A DNA stretch of 64,000 bases. It comes from Roseibium aggregatum (GTDB lineage Bacteria > Pseudomonadota > Alphaproteobacteria > Rhizobiales > Stappiaceae). Below, piece by piece: positions 235 to 20,289 of this stretch. A model generated the notes under the pieces. It saw nothing but the letters and a program-made list of their open reading frames with translations. It did not search any database and was not told where the DNA came from. The position numbers and the translations under genes are program-made. Where the stretch lies: assembly GCF_014692675.1 (NCBI RefSeq), contig NZ_JABFCZ010000031.1, positions 1 to 64,000 on the forward strand, in the 5' to 3' direction. Within the stretch, counting starts at the first letter, position 1. Every line of letters starts with the position of its first letter.

Positions 235-1167
235 TCAGGATTCGATAAGCCGTGCGCCGTCCCAGAGGTTTTCGCGAACAGCTTCGCGCACCAGATCGAC
301 GACGAGCGAGGTAATCCTCTCGCGAAGGAAAGTCGGCTTTGCATCCAGTGCCGTAACGAGATAGAGCGTGCGGAGAAGCCTCGGGTCGGTCACTTCACGA
401 GCGACGAGCTTACCGCTTTTCAGGTCGTCGCTGACCAGCACCTTGGGGGCCAGCGTACACGCCAGTCCTTCCTTCAGTGCACTTAGCGTACCCGCGATCG
501 AGGCCAGTTGAATGCGGGCCTGAGAGTCCAGCTTCACCAGTTCCGCCGGACGGTCGACCAGAGCACGTGACAGAGACCCGCTTTGCAGGAGCGCAACGGG
601 AAGTTCAGCCATATCTTCAAGCCTGATCGGATCGTTGGAGCTCCCGACAATATCCTTGTGACCGATGCAGAAGAGTTCTTCTTCGAGCAGCGGGGTTCTC
701 AACGTCTGTGAATCCGGCGGAGGATTGAAGATCAGGGCGGCCTCGACTTCCCCGGTCAGAAGCGAGTTGTAGGTCACCGCCGACAACCCCTCCCTGATCA
801 GCAACCTGACGCGCGGAAGATCCTCGATGACCTTCCGCATAAGCACTCCCCCGATGACATTGATCACCGAGAACGGCATGCCGATGGAGATGTTACCGGA
901 GACTTCGGCCAGGCCATGCTTGATGTCCGATGCGGCCGTCTCGAAGGCCGAGAGTATGAATTGCGCGTGCGCAAGCAGTTTCAAGCCGGCAGCTGTGGGT
1001 TCCATTCCCCTGGGTTTGCGCGTGAACAGTTTTGTTTCGAGTTCGGCTTCCAGGCTCGCTATGTGATGGCTAAGCGCCGATGCTGCCGTGTTGCAGTGAT
1101 CGGCGGCATGCGAAAGGTTCCGAAATTCGCAGACGGCCACGAAATATCTGAGTTGTCTGGTGTCCAT
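235..1167 (-). CDS. LysR-family transcriptional regulator
   Basis: A 310-residue protein with a LysR-type winged helix-turn-helix at residues about 2-60 (MDTRQLRYFVAVCEFRNLS, then A-ASALSHHIASLE as the recognition helix) and a periplasmic-binding-like effector domain from about residue 90. Length is normal for the family. It is transcribed divergently from the CoA-transferase/lyase/TRAP operon, with 102 bases between the start codons and a perfect palindrome in that gap. It is therefore very likely the operon's own regulator, with a pathway acid or CoA ester as possible co-inducer. An IS481-type element follows its 3-prime end. Confidence 0.9.
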   Translation of the reverse strand: MDTRQLRYFVAVCEFRNLSHAADHCNTAASALSHHIASLEAELETKLFTRKPRGMEPTAAGLKLLAHAQFILSAFETAASDIKHGLAEVSGNISIGMPFSVINVIGGVLMRKVIEDLPRVRLLIREGLSAVTYNSLLTGEVEAALIFNPPPDSQTLRTPLLEEELFCIGHKDIVGSSNDPIRLEDMAELPVALLQSGSLSRALVDRPAELVKLDSQARIQLASIAGTLSALKEGLACTLAPKVLVSDDLKSGKLVAREVTDPRLLRTLYLVTALDAKPTFLRERITSLVVDLVREAVRENLWDGARLIES

Positions 1168-1191
1168 GCCATCATTCTATATTCGAGAACG

Positions 1192-1208
1192 TATCCTTCT
1201 AAAGGATA
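1192..1208. promoter_or_regulatory. candidate LysR operator in the divergent promoter
   Basis: A perfect inverted repeat, TATCCTT-CTA-AAGGATA (7-3-7), lies between the lysR start (1167) and the CoA-transferase start (1270). It contains the T-N11-A core (T1194, A1206) expected of LysR-type recognition sites. The surrounding gap is AT-rich compared with the genes. Binding by the adjacent regulator is inferred from position and symmetry. Confidence 0.6.
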
Positions 1209-1269
1209 TTATTTTCCGACCGCTTCCTTTTCTTCATATTCCGTCGTCAAGAAATCTGAGGAGGAAGCG

Positions 1270-2418
1270 ATGACATCCGGACGTCCCCTGGAAGGCCTTC
1301 GCGTGGTCGAAATGAGCCATATGGTCATGGGGCCGTCGACAGGCATGTTCCTCGCGTTTCTCGGCGCCGAAGTGATCAAGATCGAACCGCCGGAGGGCGA
1401 CAAGACCAGAAACTTGACCGGCATGGGGGCCGGGTTCTTTCCGACCTTCAACCGCGGAAAGAAATCCGTCACCCTGAACATCAAGGACGAGAACGACCTC
1501 GCCAAGCTGCACACCCTGCTGAAGACCGCCGACGTTTTCGTCGAGAATTTCCGCGATGAAACGTTGGCGAAGATGGGGCTGGCGCCCGAACAGTTACGCG
1601 AGAAGAACCCCAGGCTCATCGTTGCGTCCTGCAAAGGCTTCCTCAAGGGCCCCTATGAGCATCGCGCCGCGATGGACGAGGTGGTGCAGATGATGACCGG
1701 CATGGCCTATATGACCGGACCTCTCGGCCGGCCGCTTCGCATTGGCTCCTCGGCGAATGACATCATGGGGGGGCTCTTTGCCGCCTTCGGTGTTCTGGCG
1801 GCCTTGATCGCCAGGGACAAAACGGGCGAAGGCGCATCGATCCGCTCCGGCCTTTTCGAAAACTGCCTGCTGCTCGTCGCCCAGCACATGGTTCAGTACG
1901 ACATCGAGGGGACGGAATCGCCGCCGATGCCGGAACGCGTGTTTTCCTGGCCTGTTTACGACCTTTTCCCGACGCGTGACGGCCGGCAGATATTTGTCGG
2001 CGCCGCGACGGACGGCCAGTGGGAGAAGCTCTGCAAGGGACTTGGACTTGAACATCTGCTCGACGATCCGCGCCTGCAATCGCGGCCAGACCAGATCGCG
2101 GCTCGCGACTGGACACTGCCCCAGATCGCAGAGAAGGTCGCCGCCCATCCGTTCGCCGAGATGGTGCGGATCATGGAAGAGAACGACCTCCTCTTTGCGC
2201 CCGTCGCCCGCCCCGCCGAAATGTATGACGACCCGCACGTCAATCGTCCAGGCGGTCTGTTCACCTCGCATTACGCCGATAAGAAGGACTTCCGCGCGCC
2301 CGCTCTGCCCGTTGAAATGAACGGCCGCCCGATCGTGTCGGAGAGCGTGGATATTCCGTCGATTGGCGAGAACAACGCCGAGATCCTCGGTGCTCTCAAG
2401 GTGGAGGCGGCGGAATAA
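1270..2418 (+). CDS. CaiB/BaiF family (type III) CoA-transferase
   Basis: A 382-residue family III CoA-transferase, which moves CoA from a donor such as succinyl-CoA to a carboxylic acid. The N-terminus (PLEGLRVVEMSHMVMGPSTG, then LGAEVIKIEPP) and Asp136 in the context HRAAMDEVVQ, where the family carries its catalytic aspartate, are all present. The ATG at 1270 is chosen because GAGGAGGAA precedes it at good spacing; the frame is open further upstream but that part overlaps the promoter and lysR. The stop is two bases before the lyase start, implying co-translation. Relatives include the human succinate-hydroxymethylglutarate CoA-transferase; the actual acid acceptor here is not shown by the sequence. 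Confidence 0.9.
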   Translation: MTSGRPLEGLRVVEMSHMVMGPSTGMFLAFLGAEVIKIEPPEGDKTRNLTGMGAGFFPTFNRGKKSVTLNIKDENDLAKLHTLLKTADVFVENFRDETLAKMGLAPEQLREKNPRLIVASCKGFLKGPYEHRAAMDEVVQMMTGMAYMTGPLGRPLRIGSSANDIMGGLFAAFGVLAALIARDKTGEGASIRSGLFENCLLLVAQHMVQYDIEGTESPPMPERVFSWPVYDLFPTRDGRQIFVGAATDGQWEKLCKGLGLEHLLDDPRLQSRPDQIAARDWTLPQIAEKVAAHPFAEMVRIMEENDLLFAPVARPAEMYDDPHVNRPGGLFTSHYADKKDFRAPALPVEMNGRPIVSESVDIPSIGENNAEILGALKVEAAE

Positions 2419-2420
2419 CC

Positions 2421-3374
2421 ATGCCCGATGTTTTCCAAGCTTACCCAAGAAACCGCATTGCGATACGGGAAGTCGGATTGCGTGACGGTCTGCAACTCAC
2501 AAAGAACTGGCCGACGACGGCCCAGAAAATTGATTGGATCGACCAGGAGTATGCGGCCGGTATGCGTTACTTCGAAGTCGGATCGTTCCTGCCGGTCGAC
2601 AAGGTGCCACGCTTTGCCGATGTCCGGGACGTCATTGCCGCCGTCGATAAACATGGCGATGCGCATGGCGTTGCTCTGGCCCTTAACCAGCGCGGCGCCA
2701 CCGACGCACTGGCAACGCCGGTCGGAGAAATCACCGTTGTGGTGTCCGCAAGCCAGGCCCACAACGAGGCCAACGTACGCCGGACCCAGGAGCAGAGCCT
2801 GGCGGAAATCGCCAACGTTGTGAAACTCCGCGACGCATCGGGCAAGGACACGATCATCAACGCTGGCATCGCCATGGCGTTCGGCTGCTCCCTGTCCGGC
2901 GCTGTCCCCGAGGACAATGTCATGCGGATGGTCGACCGCTGCTTCGAAGCCGGTGCCGACATGGTCGGTCTTGCCGATACGGTCGGCTTCGCCGGTCCGC
3001 GGCAGGTCGCTTCATTATGCCGACGTATGGAGCAACGGATCGGCGATCTGCCTTACGTCATGCACTTTCACGATACGCGCGGTATGGGCATTGCGAATGC
3101 GGCGGCTGCGATCGATGCCGGTTGCCGGGTGTTCGATGCGTCTCTTGCGGGTCTCGGCGGCTGCCCTTTCGCTCCGGGCGCGACCGGAAACGTGGTGATG
3201 GAGGACCTGATCTATCTGGCTGAAACCATGGGCTTCGACACAGGTATCGATCTGGAAAAAATCATCGAAACGCGCGCAATTCCGGCGAAGGCTATGCCGG
3301 AGGAAACGCTCTATGGCGCGCTTGCGAAAGCAAGACCGCCGAAATCGTTGGACTGGCGTGCAAGCGCTGCCTGA
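2421..3374 (+). CDS. HMG-CoA lyase-family enzyme (divergent paralogue)
   Basis: A 317-residue TIM-barrel lyase of the HMGL-like family. Catalytic features are kept: R21-D22 in IREVGLRDGLQ, E52 in FEVGSF, the metal-binding HFH at 215-217 with D218, Cys248 in GLGGCPFAPGATGN, and N257. HMG-CoA lyase cleaves 3-hydroxy-3-methylglutaryl-CoA to acetyl-CoA and acetoacetate. The region around residues 108-121 (VSASQAHNEANVRR) differs from the SASE-FSKKNIN stretch of the liu-cluster lyase at 13259-14119, so the substrate may differ. It sits directly after the CoA-transferase and before the TRAP genes, suggesting it cleaves the CoA ester of the imported acid. Confidence 0.85.
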   Translation: MPDVFQAYPRNRIAIREVGLRDGLQLTKNWPTTAQKIDWIDQEYAAGMRYFEVGSFLPVDKVPRFADVRDVIAAVDKHGDAHGVALALNQRGATDALATPVGEITVVVSASQAHNEANVRRTQEQSLAEIANVVKLRDASGKDTIINAGIAMAFGCSLSGAVPEDNVMRMVDRCFEAGADMVGLADTVGFAGPRQVASLCRRMEQRIGDLPYVMHFHDTRGMGIANAAAAIDAGCRVFDASLAGLGGCPFAPGATGNVVMEDLIYLAETMGFDTGIDLEKIIETRAIPAKAMPEETLYGALAKARPPKSLDWRASAA

Positions 3375-3455
3375 CAGCTCGTGGCTGCGAGGAGGCAGCC
3401 GACCGGTGGCCTGAGCCACTCAATCAAATCAGACCTGATAGGGAGGACCCCAAAA

Positions 3456-4457
3456 ATGAAATCCTTGCTCGTATCGACTGCCCTTGCGGCGGTCATGGCT
3501 ATTGGCGGAACGGCTGCCGCATCGGCTGAAACCGTGATGCGTTGCAGCCACCAGCTGCCGCCGGCCCACACCGTGGCAAAGGTGATCGACCGCTGGGCGG
3601 CAGAAGTCGAAAAGCTGTCGAACGGAGAAATCGATGTCCAGATCTTCGGCGCCGACAGCCTTGTCGGTGCGAAGGAAAACATCGTCGCCACGGCGAAAGG
3701 CAGCATCGAATGCGCTTTCTCCGTCCAGTTCCAGTGGGGCAAGACCCTGCCGATCATGACGGTGACCACGGCGCCATATGCCTTCTCGGATCTGAAGATC
3801 TGGAAGAACTGGGACGGTTCGGAAGCGGCAAATTTCCTGGAAGAAAAGCTGCGCTCGAAAGGGGTGGAGAATGTCGTCTGGCTGTTCCAGACAAACAGCT
3901 CGGTCTTTACCTCGAAAGGAAAATTCCTGTCGAAGCCGTCTGATTTCGAGGGTATGAAAATTCGCGGCCTGACGCCGGCCTTCGATGCGGGCCTGGCGGC
4001 TCTCGGCGCTTCGCCGACAGCACTGCCCGGATCAGAGGTCTACCAGGCCTTGGCGACCGGTATCCTCGATGGCGCCATGACCGGCACCGACGCCGCCGTT
4101 TCGCGAAAGTACTATGAGGTCCAGGATCATTTCGTTGTCTCCCCGGTCATCTCCGTATTCCTCCACGGATATGTGAACCCGCAATTTTATGCAGGCCTGT
4201 CCGATACGGCCAAGAAGGCTCTGGACGAAGCGGGACACGAGGCAGCAGGCTGGGCTGTCGAGGCGGCCGAAAGCGCGCTTGCTGCGGCACCTGGCGAACT
4301 GGAGGCCAAGGGCGCCAGCGTTCATATTGCGTCCGATGAAGAAAACGCGGCCATGGAAGCCGTCATGCGCCCTGCCTTCGACGCGGCCTTCAAGGCAGAT
4401 GACCCGGACAGCCAGAAGCTGCTTGAGTTGATCGACAAACTGCGTTCAGGCTCGTGA
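3456..4457 (+). CDS. dctP: TRAP transporter solute-binding protein (DctP family)
   Basis: A 333-residue periplasmic binding protein. The start at 3456 follows GGGAGGACC and gives a classic signal peptide (MKSLLVSTALAAVMAIGG...AASA, cleavage after about residue 24). The mature part has the DctP fold signature, including KIRGLTPAFDAGLAALGASP, whose Arg normally pairs with the ligand carboxylate, and GSEVYQALATGILDGAMTG. It delivers an organic acid to the DctQM permease encoded next. The preceding 81-base gap may hold an extra processing site, since binding proteins are needed in excess. The ligand is presumably the substrate of the upstream CoA-transferase and lyase. Confidence 0.92.
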   Translation: MKSLLVSTALAAVMAIGGTAAASAETVMRCSHQLPPAHTVAKVIDRWAAEVEKLSNGEIDVQIFGADSLVGAKENIVATAKGSIECAFSVQFQWGKTLPIMTVTTAPYAFSDLKIWKNWDGSEAANFLEEKLRSKGVENVVWLFQTNSSVFTSKGKFLSKPSDFEGMKIRGLTPAFDAGLAALGASPTALPGSEVYQALATGILDGAMTGTDAAVSRKYYEVQDHFVVSPVISVFLHGYVNPQFYAGLSDTAKKALDEAGHEAAGWAVEAAESALAAAPGELEAKGASVHIASDEENAAMEAVMRPAFDAAFKADDPDSQKLLELIDKLRSGS

Positions 4458-4461
4458 GGCC

Positions 4462-4992
4462 ATGTCACCGGGAACAAATGCACACGGGGCGGCAAAGGCC
4501 GCCCCGATTCCGGAACGGATAGCCACACCGATCGTCTGGCTCGGTGGCGCCATCAGCGCGTTGCTCATCCTCGCGGTTCTGTGCCTGACGACCTATTCCG
4601 TCTTCATGCGATATGTCCTGGACCGGCCGCCGGTCTGGATCGACGACCTGATAGGTTATGTCCTCGTCGCGCTCGTCATGCTCGGCGTGACGGAAGCCTA
4701 CAGAGGCGGAAACCACATTTCGATCGATCTTCTGACCGGGCGGTTGTCGCGACCCATGCGAAAGGTGCAGGCAGTCTGGAGCGACCTCTGCGTGATCGCG
4801 TTCTCCGCCGCCCTCATTGTCAGCACCTGGGACGCAATCGATTTCGCGATCAGCTTCGATTCCTACACCTCCGGGTCTATCGAGATCGCGTCCTGGATCC
4901 CGCAGGTCCCCTTGCTCATCGGAGGGATTCTTCTGGCGCTGTTCGCTGTCGCGCGGCTCCTGGGGCGCATGTTTCGGGGAACGCGGAAATGA
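4462..4992 (+). CDS. dctQ: TRAP transporter small permease (DctQ)
   Basis: A 176-residue inner-membrane protein with four predicted transmembrane segments (the first around residues 28-50, LGGAISALLILAVLCLTTYSVFMRYVL) and the DctQ-type pattern FMRYV...PPVWIDDLIGYVLVALVMLG. It starts five bases after the dctP stop and ends in an ATGA overlap (4989-4992) with dctM. DctQ pairs with the large DctM subunit to form the sodium-dependent secondary transporter. Confidence 0.9.
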   Translation: MSPGTNAHGAAKAAPIPERIATPIVWLGGAISALLILAVLCLTTYSVFMRYVLDRPPVWIDDLIGYVLVALVMLGVTEAYRGGNHISIDLLTGRLSRPMRKVQAVWSDLCVIAFSAALIVSTWDAIDFAISFDSYTSGSIEIASWIPQVPLLIGGILLALFAVARLLGRMFRGTRK

Positions 4993-6272
4993 CGGCCTTG
5001 CTGATCTTCGCAGGCCTGATCCTGCTTCTGCTGACGGGCATTCCGATCTTTGCGGCCCTCGGTCTGACGGCAACGGCGATCCTTCTGATATTCGAAGGCA
5101 ACATCGGTTCGGTCGCGGACACGGTTTACGCGCATCTGGACAAACCGATCCTGACGACCATTCCGCTGTTCGTCTTCATGGCGAACGTGATGATACGCGC
5201 CAAGGTGATCGACGATCTCTATGACATGGCCCACACCCTGATCGGGCACGTGCGCGGAGGTCTCGGCGTTGCGACCGTCATGGCATGTACGATTTTCGCC
5301 GCCATTTCCGGTTCTTCCGTCGCAACGGCGCTTTCGGTCGGATCGAGCGCAATCCCGCAGATGCAGCGCTTCGGATATCCGAAACGGGAAGCGCTGGGCG
5401 TGGTCGCGGCCGGCGGCACCCTGGGCATTCTGATCCCGCCGTCAGGCCCGATGATCCTCTATGCCATCGTGTCGGAGGCCTCTATCGGGGCGCTGTTCCT
5501 GGCCGGGATCATACCGGGGATTCTCCTGGCGCTCATCTTCGCGGCCTACTCGGTCATCAGCGCGACCCGGCGCGGCGGCGAGCGGCCTCCGTTCGCCGGG
5601 CGCGACAAAATACTTGCGGCCATCCGGAAGTCGATCTGGGCCGTTCTGGCGCCACCGGTGGTCATGGGCGGCATCTATATCGGTATCTTCACCGCCGCCG
5701 AGGCCGCTGCGGCCGGTTCGGTCTACGCGCTGCTCGTCGCCGTGCTCGTCTGCCGGAATTTCGGCTTCCGCGATCTCTGGCATTGCGCCTATGAATCCAT
5801 GAAGACCTCGATGATGGTGTTCATGATCATCGCAGGCGCCGCGATGTTCGGACATGCCATCACGATCATCCGGCTTCCGGTCGGCGTGACCGAGATGGTC
5901 TCCCATATGGGTCTCGGACCCTTCGGCTTTATGCTGGCAGTCATGGCCATGATCTTCATCATGGGCATGTTCTTCGAATCCATCGCGATCATCCTGATCA
6001 CGACGCCAATTCTGCTGCCGACAATGCACGCGCTGAATATCGACCTCGTCTGGTATGGCGTCCTGTTGATGATCAATCTGGAACTGGCAATGATCACCCC
6101 GCCGGTCGGAATTAACCTGTTCGTCATCAAGGGCATCACCAATGCGCCCTTGAGCGATGTGGTTCGTGGCGCGTTTCCCTACGTCCTGCTGATGATCCTC
6201 GGGCTGCTCATTCTGGTCCTCTTCCCGCAGCTCGCAACCTGGCTTCCCTACTCGGCGGGCTTCGGTCGCTGA
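4989..6272 (+). CDS. dctM: TRAP transporter large permease (DctM)
   Basis: A 427-residue polytopic membrane protein, the usual DctM length, with about a dozen hydrophobic segments. Typical motifs include GITGSS-type ISGSSVATALSVGSSAIPQM, GTLGILIPPSGPMILYAI, and ITPPVGINLFVIKG near the C-terminus. The ATG at 4989 overlaps the dctQ stop (ATGA) and gives the canonical start MTALLIFAGLILLLLTGIPIFAAL; longer readings of the frame run through dctQ. It is the last recognisable gene of the LysR-linked operon. No terminator hairpin is obvious right after the stop. Confidence 0.93.
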   Translation: MTALLIFAGLILLLLTGIPIFAALGLTATAILLIFEGNIGSVADTVYAHLDKPILTTIPLFVFMANVMIRAKVIDDLYDMAHTLIGHVRGGLGVATVMACTIFAAISGSSVATALSVGSSAIPQMQRFGYPKREALGVVAAGGTLGILIPPSGPMILYAIVSEASIGALFLAGIIPGILLALIFAAYSVISATRRGGERPPFAGRDKILAAIRKSIWAVLAPPVVMGGIYIGIFTAAEAAAAGSVYALLVAVLVCRNFGFRDLWHCAYESMKTSMMVFMIIAGAAMFGHAITIIRLPVGVTEMVSHMGLGPFGFMLAVMAMIFIMGMFFESIAIILITTPILLPTMHALNIDLVWYGVLLMINLELAMITPPVGINLFVIKGITNAPLSDVVRGAFPYVLLMILGLLILVLFPQLATWLPYSAGFGR

Positions 6273-9815: not shown

Positions 9816-10220
9816 TTACCAGCCGAACTGGAAGGTAGCGCCGGTCTGGCCGTTGCCGTTCTGGGCAATGTGGGCGTCGGTGCCCTCGCCGAACTGGAAC
9901 AGGCCGTAGGAATTGTTGTTGCCGTTCTGCTGGATGGTGCCGTTATGGCCGTTGCCTTCCTGATGCACGACGGCGTTGTTGCCGAAGCCGTTCTGCAGGA
10001 CCCCGGCCACATTACCGAAGCCGTTCTGCTTGATGCCGCCGCCCTGCTTGATGCCGTTGAAGACGGAATACATGGCCAGGCCGGCGCGCACGGCAGTTGC
10101 CTGGTCGGCATCGGTCGGAGCGACGTTGATCGAAATCGAGCCGCCGGCAAAGGCCGAGCCGATGGAAACGAAGGTGGCGATGGTGGCTGCCGTGAGGGTT
10201 TTTGCGATTGCGGTTTTCAT
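9816..10220 (-). CDS. curlin-repeat amyloid subunit (CsgA/CsgB-like)
   Basis: A 134-residue secreted protein: signal peptide MKTAIAKTLTAATIATFVSI...SAFA, then a body of imperfect curlin repeats with the Q-x-G-x(1-2)-N pattern (IKQNGFGNVAGVLQNGFGN, HQEGNGHNGTIQQNGNNN, IAQNGNGQTGATFQFGW). Such repeats stack into a beta-solenoid amyloid fibre on the cell surface. AGAGGAAAG precedes the start. It is the third gene of the operon. Which of the two curlins is the major subunit and which the nucleator cannot be decided from sequence alone. Confidence 0.88.
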   Translation of the reverse strand: MKTAIAKTLTAATIATFVSIGSAFAGGSISINVAPTDADQATAVRAGLAMYSVFNGIKQGGGIKQNGFGNVAGVLQNGFGNNAVVHQEGNGHNGTIQQNGNNNSYGLFQFGEGTDAHIAQNGNGQTGATFQFGW

Positions 10221-10270
10221 GGGTCTTTCCTCTTCAGGTTCTGTAATGGTCGAATACTGGACGGGGTTGA

Positions 10271-10660
10271 TCAGATGCGGCCGCCGAAGGTCTCCGAACA
10301 GCTATGGGTATCGCTGCCGATGGCGATCTTGAGGTCCGCTTCATAGACGGCGCCGGAGTTGCCGAGCATCACCTTGCCAAGCGTGGCGGAGCCATCGGCT
10401 GAGGTGGTGAACCGGCCGCCCTGGCTGATGCTGGTGTTGCCGCTGGCGCCGGAACCCTGAACGGTAAGCCGGTAGGTGCCGGACACTTCGGGGCCGGCGT
10501 CCACATGACCGGCAAGGGCGATCATGCCGCCGCTGACGGTTGCGGTGATTTCGCAGCGGGTCGTTTCGCTGCCTGCCTGGCTGTCGTCCGCAGTCCACAA
10601 GGTGACGCCTGCAAGGGCGACGAGGAGGCCGGCAAGGGCGGGTCTGGAATATTTCAACAT
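10271..10660 (-). CDS. csgH: curli assembly inhibitor/chaperone CsgH
   Basis: A 129-residue periplasmic protein: signal peptide (MLKYSRPALAGLLVALAGVTL), then a small beta-sandwich with two cysteines (C36-E-I and HSC near the C-terminus) and the pattern G-x-Y-x-L-x-V...G-x-S-x-x-x-Q-G-G-x-F. This is the CsgC/CsgH fold. CsgH is the alphaproteobacterial functional counterpart of E. coli CsgC, which keeps curli subunits from polymerising in the periplasm. Its position between two curlin genes on the same strand supports the call. Confidence 0.85.
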   Translation of the reverse strand: MLKYSRPALAGLLVALAGVTLWTADDSQAGSETTRCEITATVSGGMIALAGHVDAGPEVSGTYRLTVQGSGASGNTSISQGGRFTTSADGSATLGKVMLGNSGAVYEADLKIAIGSDTHSCSETFGGRI

Positions 10661-10738
10661 GGCTCTTTCCTTTCCGGCGACGGCCGGGCCGTGCCCGGTC
10701 CGTCGAGGGTGGTGTCGGGAGAACGTGCCGGTGTGCGG

Positions 10739-11173
10739 TTACGGGCAGGTCTGTACGAAGGCCGCGACATTGCCGCCTCCGGACTGGGAGACGTTGGCGT
10801 TGCAGCCGTTGCCGACCTGGACGCCGGCGGCCACGTTGCCGTTGCCGTCCTGGGTCAGGACCGCGGTGTGGTTGGCGCCGAACTGACCGACGCCGCCGGA
10901 ATTGCCGTGGCCGTTCTGCCAGATGTCGGCGTCATTGTTGATGCCGTCCTGACCGATGGCGGCGGTGTTGTGATTGCCGAACTGGTGCGTGACCGAATTG
11001 TTGTGCAGGCCGTTCTGGAAGACTCCGATGACGTTGTCGAAGCCGGTCTGTTCGCCGCCGGCGGAATTGCCGAACCCGAACTGATCGATGGTGATGCCGC
11101 CTGCCATGGCGGGGACTGCGAAGACGGTGAGGGCGACGGCGGTTGCGGTCGAGATGATGAATTTCCGGGTCAT
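10739..11173 (-). CDS. curlin-repeat amyloid subunit (CsgA/CsgB-like)
   Basis: A 144-residue curlin, first gene of the operon. Signal peptide MTRKFIISTATAVALTVFAV...AMA is followed by about five repeats (IDQFGFGNSAGGEQTGFDN, VFQNGLHNNSVTHQFGNHN, IGQDGINNDADIWQNGHGN, and so on). A cysteine pair near the end (GNGC and QTCP) is absent from the other curlin. GAGGAAAG precedes the ATG. It is separated from csgH by 78 bases. No csgD, csgE, csgF or csgG is in the window, so secretion must depend on genes elsewhere. Confidence 0.88.
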   Translation of the reverse strand: MTRKFIISTATAVALTVFAVPAMAGGITIDQFGFGNSAGGEQTGFDNVIGVFQNGLHNNSVTHQFGNHNTAAIGQDGINNDADIWQNGHGNSGGVGQFGANHTAVLTQDGNGNVAAGVQVGNGCNANVSQSGGGNVAAFVQTCP

Positions 11174-12476: not shown

Positions 12477-13262
12477 CTAGGCGACCCAGTTCGGCTTGCG
12501 CTTGTCGAAGAAGGCGGAGATGCCCTCCTGCGCCTCGGGTGTTTCCCAGGTATCGGCCAGGCGGCGGATGGTGTCGTCGATGACGGCGTCGGACATGTCC
12601 GGTCCGAGTGACCGCGCCAGCGCCTTGCTGGCGGCAACCGCCGCGGGGGCGGCGCCAAGGTAGGGTTTTATTTCCGCTTCCACGGCCGCATCCAGGTCTT
12701 CGGCTGGCACGACCTTTGCGACGAGATCGAGATCGCGTGCCTCATGCGCCCCGAAGATCCGGGCGGACATGAACACGCGGCGCGCCTTGCCCTCGCCCAT
12801 GCGGGCCAGAACATAGGGGCTGATCGTCGCCGGGATCAGGCCGAGGCGGACTTCCGTCAGGCCGAATTTGGCACCCTCGACCGCGACCACCGTATCGCAG
12901 ACGCTCATCATGCCGATGCCGCCGCCGAAGGCCTGGCCCTGCACCCGGCCGATGACCGGCTTGGGCAGTTCGTTGAGGGCCTTCAGCATCATCGCCAGCT
13001 TGCGTGCCTCGGCCATGCGGGTCTCGCGGGTGGCGGTAAACTGTTCGCGCATCCAGCCAAGATCCCCGCCGGCGCAGAAGCTTGCGCCGGCGCCGGTCAG
13101 AACGACCACGCGCACGGCCTCGTCGGCGGCAAGCTGCCGCGCGGCCTCCGCCAGCTCGTCGATCATCTGCGCGGACAGGGAATTGTGCTTGTCGGCACGG
13201 TTCAGAAGAAGCGTCGCGACGCCACGGTCGTCGGTGGTGATCGCAATGGTTTCGAAACTCAT
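12477..13262 (-). CDS. liuC: enoyl-CoA hydratase, probable methylglutaconyl-CoA hydratase
   Basis: A 261-residue crotonase-family protein with the oxyanion-hole segments ASFCAGGDLGWM and GQAFGGGIGMMSVCD. In leucine catabolism this step hydrates 3-methylglutaconyl-CoA to HMG-CoA. The specific assignment rests on context: it overlaps the HMG-CoA lyase gene by four bases (ATGA) and closes an operon with both methylcrotonyl-CoA carboxylase subunits. It is the last gene before the palindromic repeat. Confidence 0.88.
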   Translation of the reverse strand: MSFETIAITTDDRGVATLLLNRADKHNSLSAQMIDELAEAARQLAADEAVRVVVLTGAGASFCAGGDLGWMREQFTATRETRMAEARKLAMMLKALNELPKPVIGRVQGQAFGGGIGMMSVCDTVVAVEGAKFGLTEVRLGLIPATISPYVLARMGEGKARRVFMSARIFGAHEARDLDLVAKVVPAEDLDAAVEAEIKPYLGAAPAAVAASKALARSLGPDMSDAVIDDTIRRLADTWETPEAQEGISAFFDKRKPNWVA

Positions 13263-14119
13263 TCGCTGTCGCTCCTCAGGCTTCGGGCGAAGGCCGAAAC
13301 CTCGGCGAGCCTTGCCATGTCGAGGCCGGTCTCGAAGCCCTGTTGTATCATCAGGTCCGCGACCGCTTCCGTTGCGACATTGCCCTTGGCGCCGGGCGCA
13401 TAGGGGCAGCCGCCGAGACCGCCGATGGCGGAATCGAAGGTGCGCAGGCCTTTTTCGAGACTGACCTCGATGTTCTCCAGCGCCCGGCCCTTGGTGTCGT
13501 GATAGTGGCCGGCAAGGCGGTCGGCCGGAACCTCGGCCAGAACCGCGTCGAGCATGCGCGCGATCGTTTCCGGTGTGCCGGCGCCGATGGTGTCGCCGAG
13601 GGAAATCTCGTAGCAGTCGAGTTCGTGAAGCAGCTTTGCCACCCGGGCGACGGCTTCCGGCGGGGTCGGACCGTCATAAGGACAGTCGGTGACGCAGGAG
13701 ATGTAGCCGCGCACCGGCATGCCGTCTTCGTGGGCCTTTTCGATGAGCGGCTTGAAGCGCTCGATGCTTTCGGCGACGGAACAGTTGATGTTCTTCTTCG
13801 AAAAGCCTTCGGAAGCCGCACCGAAGATGGCGACCTCGTCGACATAGGCGTTGCGGGCCGCCGTATAGCCTTTCACGTTCGGGGTCAGGGCCGTGTAGAA
13901 GACGCCCGGATGGCGGTGGATGCCGGCCATGACGTCCGCCGCATCGGCCATCTGCGGCACCCATTTGGGGCTGACGAAGCTGGTGACCTCGATCTTGCGG
14001 AACCCGCAGTCCGACAACATGTCGACCAGCCGGATCTTGTCTTCGGTCGGAACGAAATTCTTTTCGTTCTGCAACCCGTCGCGCGGGCCCATTTCAAAGA
14101 TGGTGACAAAGTCGGACAT
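13259..14119 (-). CDS. liuE: hydroxymethylglutaryl-CoA lyase
   Basis: A 286-residue HMG-CoA lyase. The sequence has the canonical motifs MGPRDGLQNEK (Arg-Asp pair), KIEVTSFVSPKWVPQMAD, SASE-type GAASEGFSKKNINCS, GHYHDTKG (metal-binding His pair), and the signature GLGGCPYAPGAKGN with its catalytic Cys. It splits HMG-CoA to acetyl-CoA plus acetoacetate, the final step of leucine degradation. It begins three bases after the acyl-CoA synthetase stop and overlaps the hydratase by four bases, so it is operon-encoded. It is a much more typical lyase than the paralogue at 2421-3374. Confidence 0.95.
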   Translation of the reverse strand: MSDFVTIFEMGPRDGLQNEKNFVPTEDKIRLVDMLSDCGFRKIEVTSFVSPKWVPQMADAADVMAGIHRHPGVFYTALTPNVKGYTAARNAYVDEVAIFGAASEGFSKKNINCSVAESIERFKPLIEKAHEDGMPVRGYISCVTDCPYDGPTPPEAVARVAKLLHELDCYEISLGDTIGAGTPETIARMLDAVLAEVPADRLAGHYHDTKGRALENIEVSLEKGLRTFDSAIGGLGGCPYAPGAKGNVATEAVADLMIQQGFETGLDMARLAEVSAFARSLRSDSE

Positions 14120-14122
14120 GTC

Positions 14123-15757
14123 TCAGGCTTTCGTTTCTCGTGTGGCGCGGTCACGCAATTCGCGGCGGATCACCTTGCCGGTGGTGGTCATGGGCAGGGC
14201 ATCGACGAAGCTGATTTCGCGCGGATATTCGTGCGCCGCAAGGCGGGTTTTGACGAAATCGGCAATTTCCTTCGCCAATTCGTCGCTGCCGGTCACGCCG
14301 TCCTTCAGGACGATGAAGGCCTTGACGATTTCGGTCCGCTGCGGGTCCGGCTTGCCGACGACACCGGCAAGGGCGACGGCCGGGTGTTTCAGCAGGCAGT
14401 CCTCGATTTCGCCCGGTCCGATGCGGTAGCCGGACGAGGTGATGACGTCGTCGTCGCGGCCGACGAAGCGGATCCAGCCCTCACGATCGCGCATGCCGGT
14501 GTCGCCGGTGAGCAACCAGTCGCCGGCAAATTTCTTCTGCGTCGCGTCCGGGTTGTTCCAGTAGCCGAGGAACATCACCGGGTCGGGACGCCGGACCGCG
14601 ATGTTCCCCAGTTCGTCATCGCCGAGAATGGTGCCTTTGTCATCGACCACGTTGACGTCGTGGCCGGGTACGGCGCGGCCCATGATGCCGGGGCGGGCCT
14701 CCATGATCGCGGACGAGCTGGAGACGATCATGTTGCATTCGGTCTGGCCGTAGAACTCGTTGATGGTCAGGCCGAAGGTCTTGCGGCCCCAGTCGATCAG
14801 TTCCGCGCCCAGGGTTTCGCCGCCCGAGGCGACGGAACGCAGGTTCAGCGTCCAGCGCGTCTCTGGGCTTTCCACCTGGCGCATCATTTTGAGCGCGGTG
14901 GGCGGCAGGAAGGTGTTGCGGATCTTCTCGCGCTCCAGCAGGTCGAAGGCGGCCTCGGGCGTGAATTTCCTGAAGCGGCAGGCAACAACCGGAACGCCCA
15001 GATAAAGCGCCGGCATCAGCACGTCGAGCAAGCCGCCGATCCAGGCCCAGTCGGCCGGGGTCCAGATGCGGTCGCCCGGCTGGCCCAGGAAATCGTGGCT
15101 CATCTCCACCCCGGGCAGGTGGCCAAGCAGGACCCGGTGGCCGTGCAGCGCGCCCTTGGGCTGACCGGTGGTGCCGGAGGTGTAGATGATGATCGCCGGG
15201 TCGTCGGCTTTTGTCTGTCTCGGCGTGAAGGTCTCCGGCTGATCCGCCATGGCGGGGGCCAGATGTTCGGCGCCATGGAGAGCGCCGTCGATGCAGAAGA
15301 CCGTCTGCAGCTCCGGCAACTCACCTCGGATCTTTTCCAGCTTCGCCGCGCCACCGGTATCAGTGACGACGACCTTGGCGCCTGAATTGCCGAGGCGGTA
15401 GGCGAGCGCCTCGTCGCCGAAGAGGGTGAACAGCGGGATGGTGATCGCGCCGAGTTTGAGGGCTGCGATATGGGCGAAGGCCGTTTCCGGCGTCTGCGGC
15501 AGCAGCACGCCCACCCTGTCGCCCGGCGCGACGCCCCGTGACGCGAACAAATTGGCGAGCCGGTTGGAGCGCCGTTTCAGGTCGGCATAGGTGTAGCTCG
15601 TGCTCGCGCCGCCTTCCTCGGCGAAGACGAGGGCTTCGCGGTCCGGCTCCCTGTCGGCCCAGGCGTCGCAAACCGCCGTGCCGATATTGAACGCGTCCGG
15701 AATGTCCCAGGAGAAGCGGCTGGCGAGCTCATCGTAGGTCGAGGCCTCAGGCAGCAT
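14123..15757 (-). CDS. AMP-forming acyl-CoA synthetase
   Basis: A 544-residue ANL-superfamily enzyme with the AMP-binding P-loop IIYTSGTTGQPKGALHGH, the NEFYGQTECN motif, the TGDTGMRDREGWIRFVGRDDD hinge, and a C-terminal TTGKVIRREL catalytic lysine. It activates a carboxylic acid to its CoA ester. In this operon it could activate isovalerate, 3-methylcrotonate or acetoacetate; the sequence does not decide. Its ATG at 15757 follows GAGGAGGAAAG and overlaps the end of mccA by 11 bases. Confidence 0.9.
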   Translation of the reverse strand: MLPEASTYDELASRFSWDIPDAFNIGTAVCDAWADREPDREALVFAEEGGASTSYTYADLKRRSNRLANLFASRGVAPGDRVGVLLPQTPETAFAHIAALKLGAITIPLFTLFGDEALAYRLGNSGAKVVVTDTGGAAKLEKIRGELPELQTVFCIDGALHGAEHLAPAMADQPETFTPRQTKADDPAIIIYTSGTTGQPKGALHGHRVLLGHLPGVEMSHDFLGQPGDRIWTPADWAWIGGLLDVLMPALYLGVPVVACRFRKFTPEAAFDLLEREKIRNTFLPPTALKMMRQVESPETRWTLNLRSVASGGETLGAELIDWGRKTFGLTINEFYGQTECNMIVSSSSAIMEARPGIMGRAVPGHDVNVVDDKGTILGDDELGNIAVRRPDPVMFLGYWNNPDATQKKFAGDWLLTGDTGMRDREGWIRFVGRDDDVITSSGYRIGPGEIEDCLLKHPAVALAGVVGKPDPQRTEIVKAFIVLKDGVTGSDELAKEIADFVKTRLAAHEYPREISFVDALPMTTTGKVIRRELRDRATRETKA

Positions 15758-17741
15758 CGCTTTCCTCCTCCTGAAGCACCAGAAGCACGGTGCCGTCCTG
15801 GACTTGTTCTCCTGCGGTCACCAGCACCTCGCCGATCACGCCGTCGCGCGGGGCCTTCAGCGTGTGTTCCATCTTCATGGCTTCGAGGACCACGAGCGGT
15901 TGGTCCCTTGTGACCGTGTCGCCGGGTTTGCCCTGCAGCAGCTTGACCAGTCCCGGCATGGGCGCAATGAGCTGGTCGCCGGCCCCGGCGGCCTCGTCCT
16001 CGCCCGCGAGCCGGTCAGGCAGGCCGAAACTGTGTGCGTCGCCGCCGAAGAAGACGGTGACATCGCCCTGCCCCATGGCAATCGAGGCGGACCGGCGGGC
16101 GCCGTTGCAATTGAAGACGATGGTGCCGTTATCGATCTCGCGCAGGTCGTAGGTTTGCGGTTCTTCGCCCAGATGGACGGTGAACCGGCCCGTTCCAAGC
16201 GCGTGCACCTCGACGTCGCGGCGCTCGCCGTCGATTTCCAGAAGCGCGTATTGGCGCGATGCGCTCCACATGCGCCAGCCGGCGAGGCTGTCCCAGGGAT
16301 CTGCGCCCTTGCGCGGCTCGGTCAGGCCGAGGGCTGCGAGCGCGGCCAGCGCAATGGCTTCGTCCGACGGGGGCGCTTCGGCGATCAGGCTCTGCAGATC
16401 GCGGTCGATCAGGCCGGTGTCGACATCGCCCTTCGAAAAGCCTTCATGACGGCACAGGCTTGCCAGGAAGGCGGCGTTGGTCACGCAACCGGCGACTTCC
16501 GTTTCCTCCAGGGCCGCAAGCAGCTTGGCGAGAGCCGTATCGCGGGTGGCCCCACGAACGATCACCTTGGCGATCATCGGATCGTAGAAAGGCGTGATCT
16601 CGTCGCCGGACCGCACGCCGCTGTCGATGCGAACGGAACCTTCCGGAAACCGCAGATGGGAGAGCGTGCCGATTGCGGGCAGGAAGCCCTTGGGGGCGTC
16701 TTCCGCGTAGAGGCGGGCCTCGAAGGCCCAGCCGGAGAAGCTGATCTCCTCCTGGGTCTTGGGCAGGGGATTGCCGGCGGCGACCTGAAGCTGCCACTCG
16801 ACCAGGTCCTCGCCGGTGATCATTTCGGTCACCGGGTGCTCCACCTGAAGCCGGGTGTTCATTTCCATGAAATAGAACCGGTCGGCGCTGAGCCCCTCGG
16901 AGACATCGGCGATGAACTCGATGGTGCCGGCGCCGGAATAGTCGATGGCCTTGGCCGCGGTAACGGCGGCCTCGCCCATGGCCTTGCGCATATCCTCCGG
17001 CATGTCCGGGGCAGGCGCTTCCTCAATGACTTTTTGGTGGCGGCGCTGCAGCGAACAGTCGCGCTCGAACAGGTGCACCGCATTGCCGTGGTTGTCGCCG
17101 AAGACCTGGATCTCGATGTGCCGCGGCTTGGTCAGATATTTCTCGATCAGCACCCGGCCGTCGCCGAAGCTGGCCTCGCCTTCCCGCTGCGCGCCTTCAA
17201 GGGCGCTTGAAAAATCCTTCGGGTCGTCGACCCGGCGCATGCCCTTGCCGCCGCCGCCGGCGCGCGCCTTGATCAAGACCGGGTAGCCGATCTTGTCGGC
17301 CTCACCTTTCAGGAACGCCGGGTCCTGGTTGTCGCCGTGATAGCCGGGGACGACCGGCACGCCGGCCTTTTCCATCAGCGCCTTGGCGGCGTCCTTCAGG
17401 CCCATGGCGCGGATCGCGTCGGCGCTCGGTCCGATGAAGGCGATCCCCGCCTTTGCCAGTTCGTCGACGAAGACCGGGTTTTCCGACAGGAAGCCATAGC
17501 CCGGATGGACTGCTTCCGCACCGCTCCTGCGGCAGGCGTCGATGATGGCGTCGATCTTCAGATAGCTTTCGCCGACGGGTGCGGGGCCGAGCCGGAAGGC
17601 CTCGTCGGCCATGGCGACGTGTTTCGCATTGGCGTCCGCATCGGAATAGACGGCGACCGTGCGGATGCCGAGCCTCCTGGCGGTTTCCATGACCCGGCAG
17701 GCGATCTCGCCGCGGTTGGCAATGAGGATTTTCCTGAACAT
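15747..17741 (-). CDS. mccA: methylcrotonyl-CoA carboxylase, biotin-carrying alpha subunit
   Basis: A 664-residue biotin-dependent carboxylase subunit. In order: biotin carboxylase ([20 protein letters not shown]-grasp loop ARAGGGGKGMR; EMNTRLQVEHPVTE), a linker, and a C-terminal biotinyl domain with VVLEAMKMEHTL carrying the biotinylated Lys. With mccB it carboxylates 3-methylcrotonyl-CoA in leucine breakdown. The ATG at 17741 overlaps the macrodomain stop (TGATG); a GTG one codon upstream is possible. A sequence matching its first 24 bases at 22 of 24 positions recurs at 18330-18353. Confidence 0.95.
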   Translation of the reverse strand: MFRKILIANRGEIACRVMETARRLGIRTVAVYSDADANAKHVAMADEAFRLGPAPVGESYLKIDAIIDACRRSGAEAVHPGYGFLSENPVFVDELAKAGIAFIGPSADAIRAMGLKDAAKALMEKAGVPVVPGYHGDNQDPAFLKGEADKIGYPVLIKARAGGGGKGMRRVDDPKDFSSALEGAQREGEASFGDGRVLIEKYLTKPRHIEIQVFGDNHGNAVHLFERDCSLQRRHQKVIEEAPAPDMPEDMRKAMGEAAVTAAKAIDYSGAGTIEFIADVSEGLSADRFYFMEMNTRLQVEHPVTEMITGEDLVEWQLQVAAGNPLPKTQEEISFSGWAFEARLYAEDAPKGFLPAIGTLSHLRFPEGSVRIDSGVRSGDEITPFYDPMIAKVIVRGATRDTALAKLLAALEETEVAGCVTNAAFLASLCRHEGFSKGDVDTGLIDRDLQSLIAEAPPSDEAIALAALAALGLTEPRKGADPWDSLAGWRMWSASRQYALLEIDGERRDVEVHALGTGRFTVHLGEEPQTYDLREIDNGTIVFNCNGARRSASIAMGQGDVTVFFGGDAHSFGLPDRLAGEDEAAGAGDQLIAPMPGLVKLLQGKPGDTVTRDQPLVVLEAMKMEHTLKAPRDGVIGEVLVTAGEQVQDGTVLLVLQEEESDAA

Positions 17742-18256
17742 CACGATTGAGCTCTCCTCAAAGCGGATTCGAGGTGGGTTTTGCTTGAAGCGTCGAAGGC
17801 GACGAGGACCACCTTTTCGATCTCAGGCAGATCGGTGAGTGTCTCGCGGATGGTGCTGACGGCGATCTCCGCCGCCTGATCGGCCGGGTAACCGTAGATG
17901 CCGGTCGAGATCGCCGGGAAGGCGAAGGTCTTGCAACCTTTCTCGGCGCCGAGCCTGAGCGAGGTCGCATAACAGGAGGCAAGCAGGGCCGGCTCGCCGT
18001 CGTTGCCGCCGCGCCAGACCGGTCCGACCGTGTGGATGACGTATTGGGCGGGCAGGTTATAGCCACCGGTGATCTTTGCATCTCCGGTCTTGCATCCGCC
18101 AAGCAGCCTGCATTCATGAACCAGCTCCGGTCCGGCCGCGCGATGGATCGCGCCGTCGACGCCGCCGCCGCCGAGCAGCGACGAATTGGCGGCGTTGACG
18201 ATGGCGTCGACCTCCAGCTTCGTGATGTCGCCCTGAATGACTTCGATCTTGTCCAT
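17741..18256 (-). CDS. macrodomain protein, ADP-ribose deacylase type
   Basis: A 171-residue single macrodomain. Motifs: [20 protein letters not shown] followed by a glycine-rich [15 protein letters not shown], then [21 protein letters not shown] and the distal-ribose loop [11 protein letters not shown]. These match the YmdB/MacroD class, which hydrolyses O-acetyl-ADP-ribose or removes ADP-ribose from proteins. It is coupled to mccA (TGATG overlap) and lies in the leucine-catabolic operon, where a macrodomain is unexpected. Removal of acyl groups from O-acyl-ADP-ribose made by sirtuins is one conceivable link. Confidence 0.92.
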
Positions 18257-18260
18257 GGGC

Positions 18261-18353
18261 TTACATCCTGAACAGGCCGAAGCGATGGTCGGCGCAACTC
18301 AAAGGTCGGCCGACATTTCTTCGGACGCGGGCAAAGAGGAGTTTCCTGAACAT
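18261..18353 (-). pseudogene. chimeric scar: mccA-start-like fragment fused to mccB-end copy
   Basis: A 30-codon open frame lying between the 103-residue gene and the macrodomain gene. Its first 24 bases (18353-18330) match the first 24 of mccA at 22 positions, giving MFRKLLFA versus MFRKILIA. Its last 24 bases, through the stop, encode RFGLFRM, the exact C-terminus of mccB. The middle ([15 protein letters not shown]) matches neither. This looks like the residue of a tandem duplication of the mccB-mccA unit followed by internal deletion. It may still be translated, as it starts two bases after the upstream stop. Confidence 0.7.
18262..18284. repeat. direct repeat, copy A (mccB 3-prime end copy)
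   Basis: Twenty-three bases identical to 18683-18705, which are the last codons of mccB (RFGLFRM and the first two bases of the stop). The pair brackets the 103-residue gene and the mccA-like fragment, a spacing of 421 bases. Recombination between the two copies would delete exactly that interval and leave mccB intact. Confidence 0.85.
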
Positions 18354-18355
18354 GT

Positions 18356-18667
18356 TCACTTGCCTCCTTCGCCGGGGTCAATCGAACGCGCAATCTGCGT
18401 GAGATACCTGCTCAAATCGCTCCTGTTCAGAGCTGTTAAAACAAGGGTTGTTTGCCTCGGCTTTTCAAATTTCTCGCTGGTCAGGCAGTCATTATCTTTG
18501 CGAATGGTGTCAACTTTCACGACATCAATGATCTCGGAGCCAATCCGGATTTGATCGCCTTCGGCGAGTTCTCCTTCCGACGGTTGAAATTCCAGGGATG
18601 TGCCCTTTAGCGGGACGGTACTTGTCTCGCTGATTTCGAAAACATCATTCAGGGTGCCGCGGAACAT
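18356..18667 (-). CDS. hypothetical protein resembling elongation-factor domain II
   Basis: A 103-residue protein, with ATG at 18667 preceded by AGGAGG at good spacing. Residues 1-45 (FRGTLNDVFEISE, then VPLKGTSLEFQ and GELAEGDQIRIGS) follow the pattern of the beta-barrel domain II of EF-Tu-type GTPases, but no GTPase domain is present. The rest (RQTTLVLTALNRSDLSRYLT) is compatible with a final strand and helix. It sits between mccB and the macrodomain gene. Base composition is lower in GC than the flanking mcc genes, suggesting it was inserted. Function unknown. Confidence 0.65.
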   Translation of the reverse strand: MFRGTLNDVFEISETSTVPLKGTSLEFQPSEGELAEGDQIRIGSEIIDVVKVDTIRKDNDCLTSEKFEKPRQTTLVLTALNRSDLSRYLTQIARSIDPGEGGK

Positions 18668-18681
18668 CTCGGATAACCCTC

Positions 18682-20289
18682 CTACATCCTGAACAGGCCG
18701 AAGCGCGTGTCTTCGATCGGGGCGTTGAGGGCGGCCGACAGCGACAGGCCGAGGATGTCGCGGGTCTTGCGCGGATCGACGATGCCGTCGTCCCAGAGGC
18801 GGGCCGACGCATAGAGCGGATGGCCCTGTTCCTCGAACTGGTCGATGATGGGCTGCTTGAAGGCAGCCTCGTCTTCCGCTGACCAGGAGCCGCCCTTGCG
18901 CTCGATGCCGTCCCGGCGGACGGTGGCGAGCACGCCGGCGGCCTGTTCGCCGCCCATCACCGAAATGCGCGAGTTGGGCCAGGTCCACAGGAAGCGCGGG
19001 CTGTAGGCGCGGCCGCACATGCCGTAGTTGCCGGCGCCGAAGGAGCCGCCGACCAGCATGGTGATCTTCGGCACCTTGGTGGTGGCGACCGCGGTCACCA
19101 GCTTGGCGCCGTCCTTGGCAATGCCGCCGGATTCGTATTTGCGGCCGACCATGAAGCCGGTGATGTTCTGCAGGAAGACGAGCGGCACCTTGCGCTGGGA
19201 GCACAGCTCGACGAAGTGGGCGCCCTTGACCGCGCTCTCGGAGAAGAGCACGCCGTTGTTGGCGATGATACCGACGGGCAGCCCGTGAATATGGGCGAAG
19301 CCGCAGACCAGCGTAGTGCCGTAGCGCGCCTTGAATTCGTCGAAGCGGGAGCCGTCGACGGTGCGCGCAATGACCTCGCGGATATCGTAGGGGGTCTTCA
19401 GGTCGCCGGGCACGACGCCGAGGATTTCGTCCGGGTCGTAGAGCGGATCTTCCGGCGTCTGCCGTTCCACGCTCGCCGGCTTGATCCGGTTGAGACTGGC
19501 GATCGCACGGCGGGCAAGGGCGAGCGCATGGGCGTCGTCGCGGGCGAGATGGTCGGCCACGCCCGACAACCGCGTGTGAACATCACCGCCGCCGAGATCT
19601 TCCGCTGTCACTTCCTCACCGGTTGCCGCCTTCACCAGCGGCGGGCCGGCCAGGAAGATCGTGCCCTGGTTCTTGACGATGATGGTCTCGTCCGACATGG
19701 CCGGCACATAGGCGCCGCCGGCGGTGCACGAGCCCATGACCACGGCGATCTGGGAAATGCCCTTCGCCGACATGTTGGCCTGGTTGTAGAAGATCCGGCC
19801 GAAGTGATCCCTATCCGGGAACACCTCGTCCTGGTTCGGCAGGTTGGCGCCGCCGGAATCCACCAGGTAGACGCAGGGCAGGTTGTTCTGCTCGGCGATC
19901 TCCTGGGCGCGCAGGTGCTTCTTCACCGACATGGGATAGTAGGTGCCGCCTTTCACCGTGGCGTCGTTGGCGAGGATCATCACCTCGCGGCCTTCCACCC
20001 GGCCGATGCCGGCAATCATGCCGGCCGAAGGGGCTGCGCCGTCATACATGTCATGGGCGGCGAGCATGCCGACTTCCAGGAAGGGAGAACCCGGATCGAG
20101 CAGGCGGGAGACGCGCTCCCGCGGCAGGATCTTGCCGCGGGAGACGTGGCGCTGGCGCGCGTTTTCACCGCCGCCGTCGAGGGCGGCCTGCGCTGCGGAG
20201 CGCACCAGGTCGAGGGCGTCCTCATGGGCCTTGCGGTTGGCGGCGAATTCCGCGCTGCGCGGGGACAGGCTGGATTTAAGGATGCTCAT
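18682..20289 (-). CDS. mccB: methylcrotonyl-CoA carboxylase, carboxyltransferase beta subunit
   Basis: A 535-residue carboxyltransferase subunit, the usual MccB length. Features: N-terminal [50 protein letters not shown] (acyl-CoA oxyanion loop), and [27 protein letters not shown]. It transfers CO2 from carboxybiotin on MccA to 3-methylcrotonyl-CoA. The start follows the tetR stop by one base. Its final 23 coding bases are duplicated at 18262-18284. Confidence 0.95.
18683..18705. repeat. direct repeat, copy B (genuine mccB 3-prime end)
   Basis: The original of the 23-base duplication at 18262-18284, within the end of mccB. Because this copy continues in frame with the whole mccB gene, it is the ancestral one. 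Confidence 0.85.

Follow-up and report, generated by a model that had tools for sequence, protein, structure and literature searches.

Among described systems, the nearest precedent for the operon analysed here is the transferase-lyase pair of Chloroflexus aurantiacus, whose (R)-citramalyl-CoA lyase belongs to the HMGL family and whose citramalate CoA-transferase is of class III; we treat it as a lead. To our knowledge, no tripartite ATP-independent periplasmic (TRAP) transporter and no LysR regulator accompany that pair, which is used around autotrophy, unlike the operon described below. The latter comes from Roseibium aggregatum and occupies positions 235 to 6,272 of a 64,000-nucleotide stretch, called the window throughout (bases 1-64000 of a contig of 66,307 bases, or 66.3 kb, in a genome of 5.66 Mb). 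A class III CoA-transferase directly adjoins an HMGL-family lyase in it, together with TRAP genes and a LysR gene, and the very probable role of the operon is to take up a branched hydroxy-dicarboxylic acid, link CoA to it, and split the product into acetyl-CoA and an oxo-acid.

The enzyme names (R)-citramalyl-CoA lyase (EC 4.1.3.46) and succinyl-CoA:(R)-citramalate CoA-transferase (EC 2.8.3.20) appear in a passage of PMC8307300, and a paper on the former is among those cited in a section of PMC3832036. The itaconate/(S)-citramalate cluster (ict, ich, and ccl) shares with the window operon a CoA-transferase and the cleavage of citramalyl-CoA to acetyl-CoA and pyruvate, as described in an excerpt of PMC12290011, where a table gives an itaconate CoA-transferase a value of less than 1 with (R)-citramalate. 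That cluster uses an (S)-citramalyl-CoA lyase and an itaconyl-CoA hydratase, whereas the window lyase belongs to PF00682 and no hydratase is found among the six genes of the window operon. The (S)-citramalyl-CoA lyase of the itaconate cluster is CitE-like.

Two further systems share the protein families of the operon. The classical (S)-3-hydroxy-3-methylglutaryl-CoA (HMG-CoA) lyase of leucine catabolism (human HMGCL, P. aeruginosa PA2011, and B. subtilis YngG) has the same fold family, metal ligands, and Arg41, Glu72, and Cys266 as the window lyase, which differs in having Tyr167 and Ser201 replaced and in falling in a separate clade. Human SUGCT, the succinate-hydroxymethylglutarate CoA-transferase, is of the same family III as the window transferase and has an aligned Asp, but it is a distant relative (150 bits).

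Gene content and conservation of the operon

The families of the six genes were assigned by Pfam and NCBIfam profile searches, with all Pfam matches above the cut-off. A divergent LysR gene on the minus strand stands opposite a run of five plus-strand genes (1270-6272) in the order transferase, lyase, DctP, DctQ, and DctM. The original prediction had described this combination, in which a TRAP transporter and a divergent LysR accompany a family III CoA-transferase and an HMGL-family lyase; all six genes were found exactly where it had placed them, and Pfam bears out the composition. The features are as follows.

235-1167, minus strand: LysR-family regulator (Pfam LysR_substrate, 96 bits, and HTH_1, 72 bits)
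1192-1208, no strand: 17-bp palindrome TATCCTTCTAAAGGATA with a T-N11-A core within it, in the divergent gap; candidate LysR operator
1270-2418, plus strand: family III (CaiB/BaiF) CoA-transferase of 382 amino acids, predicted catalytic Asp164 (PF02515 CoA_transf_3, 358 bits)
2421-3374, plus strand: HMGL-family acyl-CoA lyase of 317 amino acids, Gly149 at the Tyr167 site in human numbering (PF00682 HMGL-like, 162 bits)
3456-4457, plus strand: DctP, TRAP solute-binding protein (PF03480, 160 bits)
4462-4992, plus strand: DctQ, TRAP small permease (PF04290, 106 bits)
4989-6272, plus strand: DctM, TRAP large permease (PF06808, 353 bits)

The gap between the transferase stop and the lyase start is 2 bp, dctQ and dctM overlap by 4 bp, and the TRAP subunit set of DctP, DctQ, and DctM is complete according to Pfam. 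DctP has an N-terminal signal-like stretch, seen by eye, and among the NCBIfam models it passes TRAP_S1 (106, cut-off 50) and fails TIGR00787 dctP (118, cut-off 175), while DctM scores 389 with TIGR00786 (cut-off 268). The palindrome is a putative and weakly indicated LysR operator; a conserved operator was rejected, because the palindromes in the divergent gaps of relatives vary in sequence and several gaps gave none.

The operon is real and repeatedly conserved in bacteria, beyond chance. Matches at E <= 1e-60 occur in 10 of 61 genomes (60 relatives plus the own genome), including 6 of the 36 other genomes of the same genus, and the best match in each of these six (52-57% identity) lies in a set of six genes identical to the window in order and orientation. 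The remaining four fetched regions (L022-L025, 43-49%) are without TRAP genes, and one of them is a second match in the same-genus genome G031. A survey of the class at E <= 1e-75 gave matches in 28 of 385 genomes, own included; a gap in E-value sets the eight best matches outside the window (49-55%, E <= 2.4e-98) apart from all others (E >= 2e-83), and all eight are accompanied by the six genes in window order and orientation.

From a collection of named genomes the best 80 loci were taken. Fourteen of these fall in the window's lyase clade, seven of them with TRAP genes (three Paracoccus, Pseudooceanicola, Salinihabitans, Marinobacterium, and Thalassobius); TRAP genes were not found within the fetched stretch of the other seven, namely six Bradyrhizobium loci and one Hyphomicrobiales metagenome-assembled genome. 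The clade as a whole was recounted over the window and 28 other loci, a sample in which one named species may recur among the genomes of other surveys. The transferase is present in all 28 non-window loci, the three TRAP genes in 21, and LysR in 26, which with the window gives 29/29, 22/29, and 27/29, respectively; a LysR gene was not found near the transferase-lyase pair in clade loci L029 and L034.

Plasmid copies of the operon were found in Paracoccus sp. AK26, Paroceanicella, Pseudosulfitobacter, and Rhizobium sullae, and lyase and transferase, the two genes compared there, are present on two Sulfitobacter plasmids. Since the presence of the operon is patchy and plasmids carry it, horizontal spread is suggested. 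The copy on plasmid p3 of Sagittula sp. MA-2 (L155, 8019-11117) looks decayed: downstream of a transferase 80% identical to that of the window, only part of a lyase (70% over 173 amino acids) and fragments of the TRAP large permease remain. Related transferase-lyase pairs lie near other transporters (MFS in L048 and L058, TctC in L050), which makes the transporter look like the variable part of a module and the pair like its core.

Other genes were seen beside the pair. The operon of Paracoccus sp. AK26 (L157, 2633-13726) is flanked by homogentisate-pathway genes, with hmgA, fahA, and maiA on one side and hppD on the other, and the arrangement in Paracoccus fontiphilus (L027) is similar, judging its open reading frames by eye. 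A gene for a gamma-carbonic-anhydrase-like hexapeptide protein, which we take to be CaiE/PaaY-like, recurs near the pair, full-length in L048, L049, L042, L056, L152, L027, L040, L158, and L159, and with one further short partial match in L035.

Residues, phylogeny, and partners of the lyase and the transferase

A passage of PMC6941031 names Arg41, Glu72, Tyr167, and Cys266 as the catalytic residues that matter most in HMG-CoA lyase, and Asp42, His233, His235, and Asn275 as its metal ligands. In the alignment, the window lyase keeps the metal ligands (D22, H215, H217, and N257) and the equivalents of Arg41, Glu72, and Cys266 (R21, E52, and C248), while Tyr167 is replaced by Gly149 and Ser201 by Gly183. 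The Tyr167 site is Gly in 22 and Ala in 7 members of the 29-member clade, with no Tyr, and the 80 other fetched lyases likewise lack Tyr there, having Gly, Ser, Ala, Thr, or Cys instead; the Ser201 site is Gly in 13 members of the clade, Ala in 8, and Ser in 8. Tyr167 is kept in the human enzyme, in YngG, in the window genome's own leucine-pathway lyase, and in the structures 1ydn and 2ftp. The chain of PDB entry 6nds that is named HMG-CoA lyase has Thr at this site and groups with the transferase-linked paralogues, which makes its name doubtful.

In a tree of 113 lyases, the window falls in a 29-row clade with support of 100/100, apart from the characterised HMG-CoA lyases. The approximately unbiased (AU) test rejected holding this clade together with three HMG-CoA lyases (p 0.0172) and holding the window lyase alone with HMG-CoA lyases (p 2e-8), both values being subject to the caveat of long branches. 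The window also contains a canonical HMG-CoA lyase (13259-14119, minus strand), about 10 kb downstream of the operon lyase, which is Tyr-bearing and 31% identical to the operon lyase. The loss of Tyr167 and the position of the clade outside the characterised enzymes argue against the operon lyase being a classical HMG-CoA lyase.

The transferase has its Asp164 aligned with an Asp in the YfdE and SUGCT chains, and a catalytic role of an Asp in family III CoA-transferases is described in a part of PMC9813914. The SUGCT chains, at 150 bits, are among its best solved relatives, and with the NCBIfam succinate-glutarate CoA-transferase equivalog it scores 209 bits, below the cut-off of 750. In a quick tree of 91 rows, it lies inside a 62-row clade with a value of 100 in the Shimodaira-Hasegawa-like approximate likelihood ratio test (SH-aLRT), and transferases of 25-35% identity that adjoin other lyases fall outside this clade.

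Near the transferase and the lyase, a LeuC-LeuD pair is present in 12 of the 108 loci examined, and all 12 LeuCD-linked transferases found sit in the 62-row clade of the window. Besides these 12, no LeuC of >45% identity was found in the 108 loci, and L051 and L056 have distant aconitase-family matches (28-32%). The LeuC of L025, one of three LeuC-like genes in genome G031, reaches 642 bits with the isopropylmalate dehydratase large-subunit subfamily model (cut-off 531) and 505 with the leuC equivalog (cut-off 560). LeuCD enzymes hydrate or dehydrate 2-alkylmalates, (R)-citramalate/citraconate being one such pair, and therefore the transferases and lyases with LeuCD partners most plausibly act on 2-alkylmalates.

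The relation between the TRAP-type and LeuCD-type systems was examined in the trees and in mixed loci. The union of the two lyase groups was not rejected by the AU test (p 0.314), the LeuCD-type group having been named after the tree was seen. In Azospirillum lipoferum 4B (L159), a window-type TRAP transporter (DctP 61%, DctM 63%) adjoins a lyase of 49% and a transferase of 50% identity; the lyase groups with LeuCD-linked lyases (SH-aLRT 94), and the transferase is placed not in the TRAP-type clade but with the transferases of Azotobacter and Pseudomonas (98), which are themselves not LeuCD-linked. Judged by these placements, the locus would be a partial bridge between the window TRAP transporter and the LeuCD-type lyases. 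Plasmid 1 of Paracoccus denitrificans PD1222 (L156, 6947-10128) has a LysR gene (40%) and a transferase (60% identical) that sits inside the TRAP-type clade, with a lyase that comes from the other main branch of the family and has Ala at the Tyr167 site, an apparent swap of the lyase partner.

The proposed pathway and competing substrates

The donor, substrate, products, stereochemistry, and regulation of the pathway are inferred from what was observed directly: the genes and their families, the residues and the gene order that are conserved, the trees, and the partner genes. DctPQM would import the acid, and the family III transferase would then move CoA onto it from a donor, probably succinyl-CoA, by way of an aspartyl-CoA intermediate at Asp164. 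The HMGL-like, metal-dependent lyase, with Asp22, His215, His217, and Asn257 as predicted metal ligands and Arg21, Glu52, and Cys248 in catalysis, would split the CoA ester by a retro-Claisen reaction into acetyl-CoA and a 2-oxo acid (pyruvate in the case of citramalate), and the LysR protein would turn the operon on in the presence of a pathway metabolite. The logic of uptake, CoA transfer, and C-C cleavage is well supported because the co-occurrence of the genes is conserved and the catalytic residues are kept. As to the substrate, we lean, with slightly less than even confidence, towards a 2-alkylmalate-type tertiary hydroxy-dicarboxylate, with (R)-citramalate as the leading candidate, degraded by a self-contained catabolic operon.

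According to a passage of PMC6689899, S in citramalyl-CoA is the equivalent of R in HMG-CoA, and the TIM-barrel family is called that of the (S)-HMG-CoA lyases. The matching citramalyl enantiomer would thus be R, and in this respect the stereochemistry agrees with the proposed substrate. The citramalate enantiomer of LeuCD is likewise R.

The original prediction had proposed the same order of uptake, activation, and cleavage, which stands on the conserved co-occurrence and the kept residues; its choice of 3-hydroxy-3-methylglutarate (HMG) as the acid is disfavoured by the lost Tyr167, the separate clade, and the 209 bits against 750. Citramalate, which it had named among the acids for growth tests, fits better in view of the LeuCD-linked relatives. 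Searches of the open-licence PubMed Central literature turned up no description of this operon. A wider proposal, which we put forward as distinctly tentative, is that Pseudomonadota have a widespread (R)-series equivalent of the itaconate/(S)-citramalate pathway, built on a transferase-lyase core that is combined with varied front ends: uptake by TRAP, MFS, or TctC systems, or hydration by a LeuCD-type enzyme. The window version would then serve to eat a branched malate, possibly longer than citramalate, on which the literature searches showed no described pathway of growth.

Several observations weigh against the 2-alkylmalate assignment. The closest solved relative of DctP, at 97 bits, is too distant for naming the ligand, and the likeness to the Chloroflexus pair is one of protein families. 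Tyr at the 167 site is absent from all 109 rows of the sampled paralogues, which names no substrate, and Ser is retained at the 201 site by 8 of the 29 clade members. No LeuCD pair was found beside the TRAP-type pair in any of the 28 clade loci or in the window, and the two LeuC-like matches of the window genome are both on other contigs. Genome G031 carries a TRAP-type operon (L020) as well as a LeuCD-type one (L025), and given this, the two systems may differ in substrate; the free lyase tree leaves the two groups apart, with other placement supported at 87/83. The L156 lyase of P. denitrificans, finally, falls on the other main branch, next to HMG-CoA lyases (quick tree, SH-aLRT 87, long branch). 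Three points, namely that the Azospirillum bridge is partial, that both types are found together in G031, and that the lyase of P. denitrificans lies near HMG-CoA lyases, led us to lower the confidence in the 2-alkylmalate reading slightly and to raise that in HMG and in an unrelated acid slightly.

The competing explanation that survives best, though we consider it rather unlikely, keeps the same chemistry and assumes a larger branched acid, such as 2-isopropylmalate or a 3-hydroxy-3-alkylglutarate, for which the emptied Tyr167 site would give room. The alignment has Gly or Ala at the Tyr167 site in 29/29 clade members and at the Ser201 site in 21/29, and it is on this alignment that the reading of the pocket is based. 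A longer 2-oxo acid could be handled by the thiamine diphosphate (TPP) enzyme and the aldehyde dehydrogenase that lie downstream in Marinobacterium L035, and by the TPP enzyme of L040, but TPP relatives occur in just these 2 of the 28 clade loci and are 26% alike; as standard parts of the pathway, these enzymes were considered and rejected as weak.

HMG itself, imported, converted to HMG-CoA, and cleaved to acetyl-CoA and acetoacetate, is an improbable substrate, although several lines lead to it. The window lyase just passes the NCBIfam hydroxymethylglutaryl-CoA lyase subfamily model NF004283 (257, cut-off 246), SUGCT chains rank among the best solved relatives of the transferase, and the P. 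denitrificans transferase is paired with a lyase placed, weakly, next to HMG-CoA lyases. A lyase of another family accepts both HMG-CoA and citramalyl-CoA, according to an excerpt of PMC6689899, and free HMG is reported from a bacterial metabolome in a part of PMC4213383. HMG is downgraded by the Gly at both the Tyr167 and Ser201 sites of the window lyase, by a clade outside the characterised HMG-CoA lyases (AU p 0.017), by the succinate-glutarate transferase model being far from reached, and by the Tyr-bearing HMG-CoA lyase that the genome has of its own. The LeuCD partners of the sister pairs are ill-suited to a 3-hydroxyglutarate, and the gene tables of six annotated plasmid neighbourhoods, which are incomplete, show no gene for activating acetoacetate close to the pair.

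Least likely of all is that the operon serves the import of an acid of unrelated kind, such as an aromatic or sugar acid, with the lyase as a side-activity or salvage enzyme: TRAP transporter ligands are very varied and the Paracoccus sp. AK26 operon sits between tyrosine-catabolism genes, but related transferase-lyase pairs lie near MFS or TctC transporters.

Annotation of relatives and neighbouring genes

Relatives of the window lyase, for example those in Rhizobium sullae, Paroceanicella, Pseudosulfitobacter, and Sulfitobacter, are annotated in public records as hydroxymethylglutaryl-CoA lyase, names that are doubtful because Tyr167 is missing and because of their position in the tree. Knowing the true substrate would allow the annotation of a family that occurs in many Pseudomonadota, also on plasmids, to be corrected. 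The operon offers a simple six-gene test case for how branched hydroxy-acids of C5 and larger size are taken up and broken down, and L020 and L025 of genome G031 form a natural pair for comparing the substrates of TRAP-type and LeuCD-type systems.

Two other regions of the window were noted. An apparently complete leucine/isovalerate degradation cluster extends over 12477-20289 on the minus strand and includes its own HMG-CoA lyase, an enoyl-CoA hydratase, an acyl-CoA synthetase, and biotin-dependent carboxylase subunits, of which the lyase alone was assigned by family search and the other genes by eye. At 9816-11173, also on the minus strand, a small gene lies between those of two small secreted-looking proteins, in which glycine/glutamine/asparagine motifs recur as they do in curlin subunits, as judged by eye.

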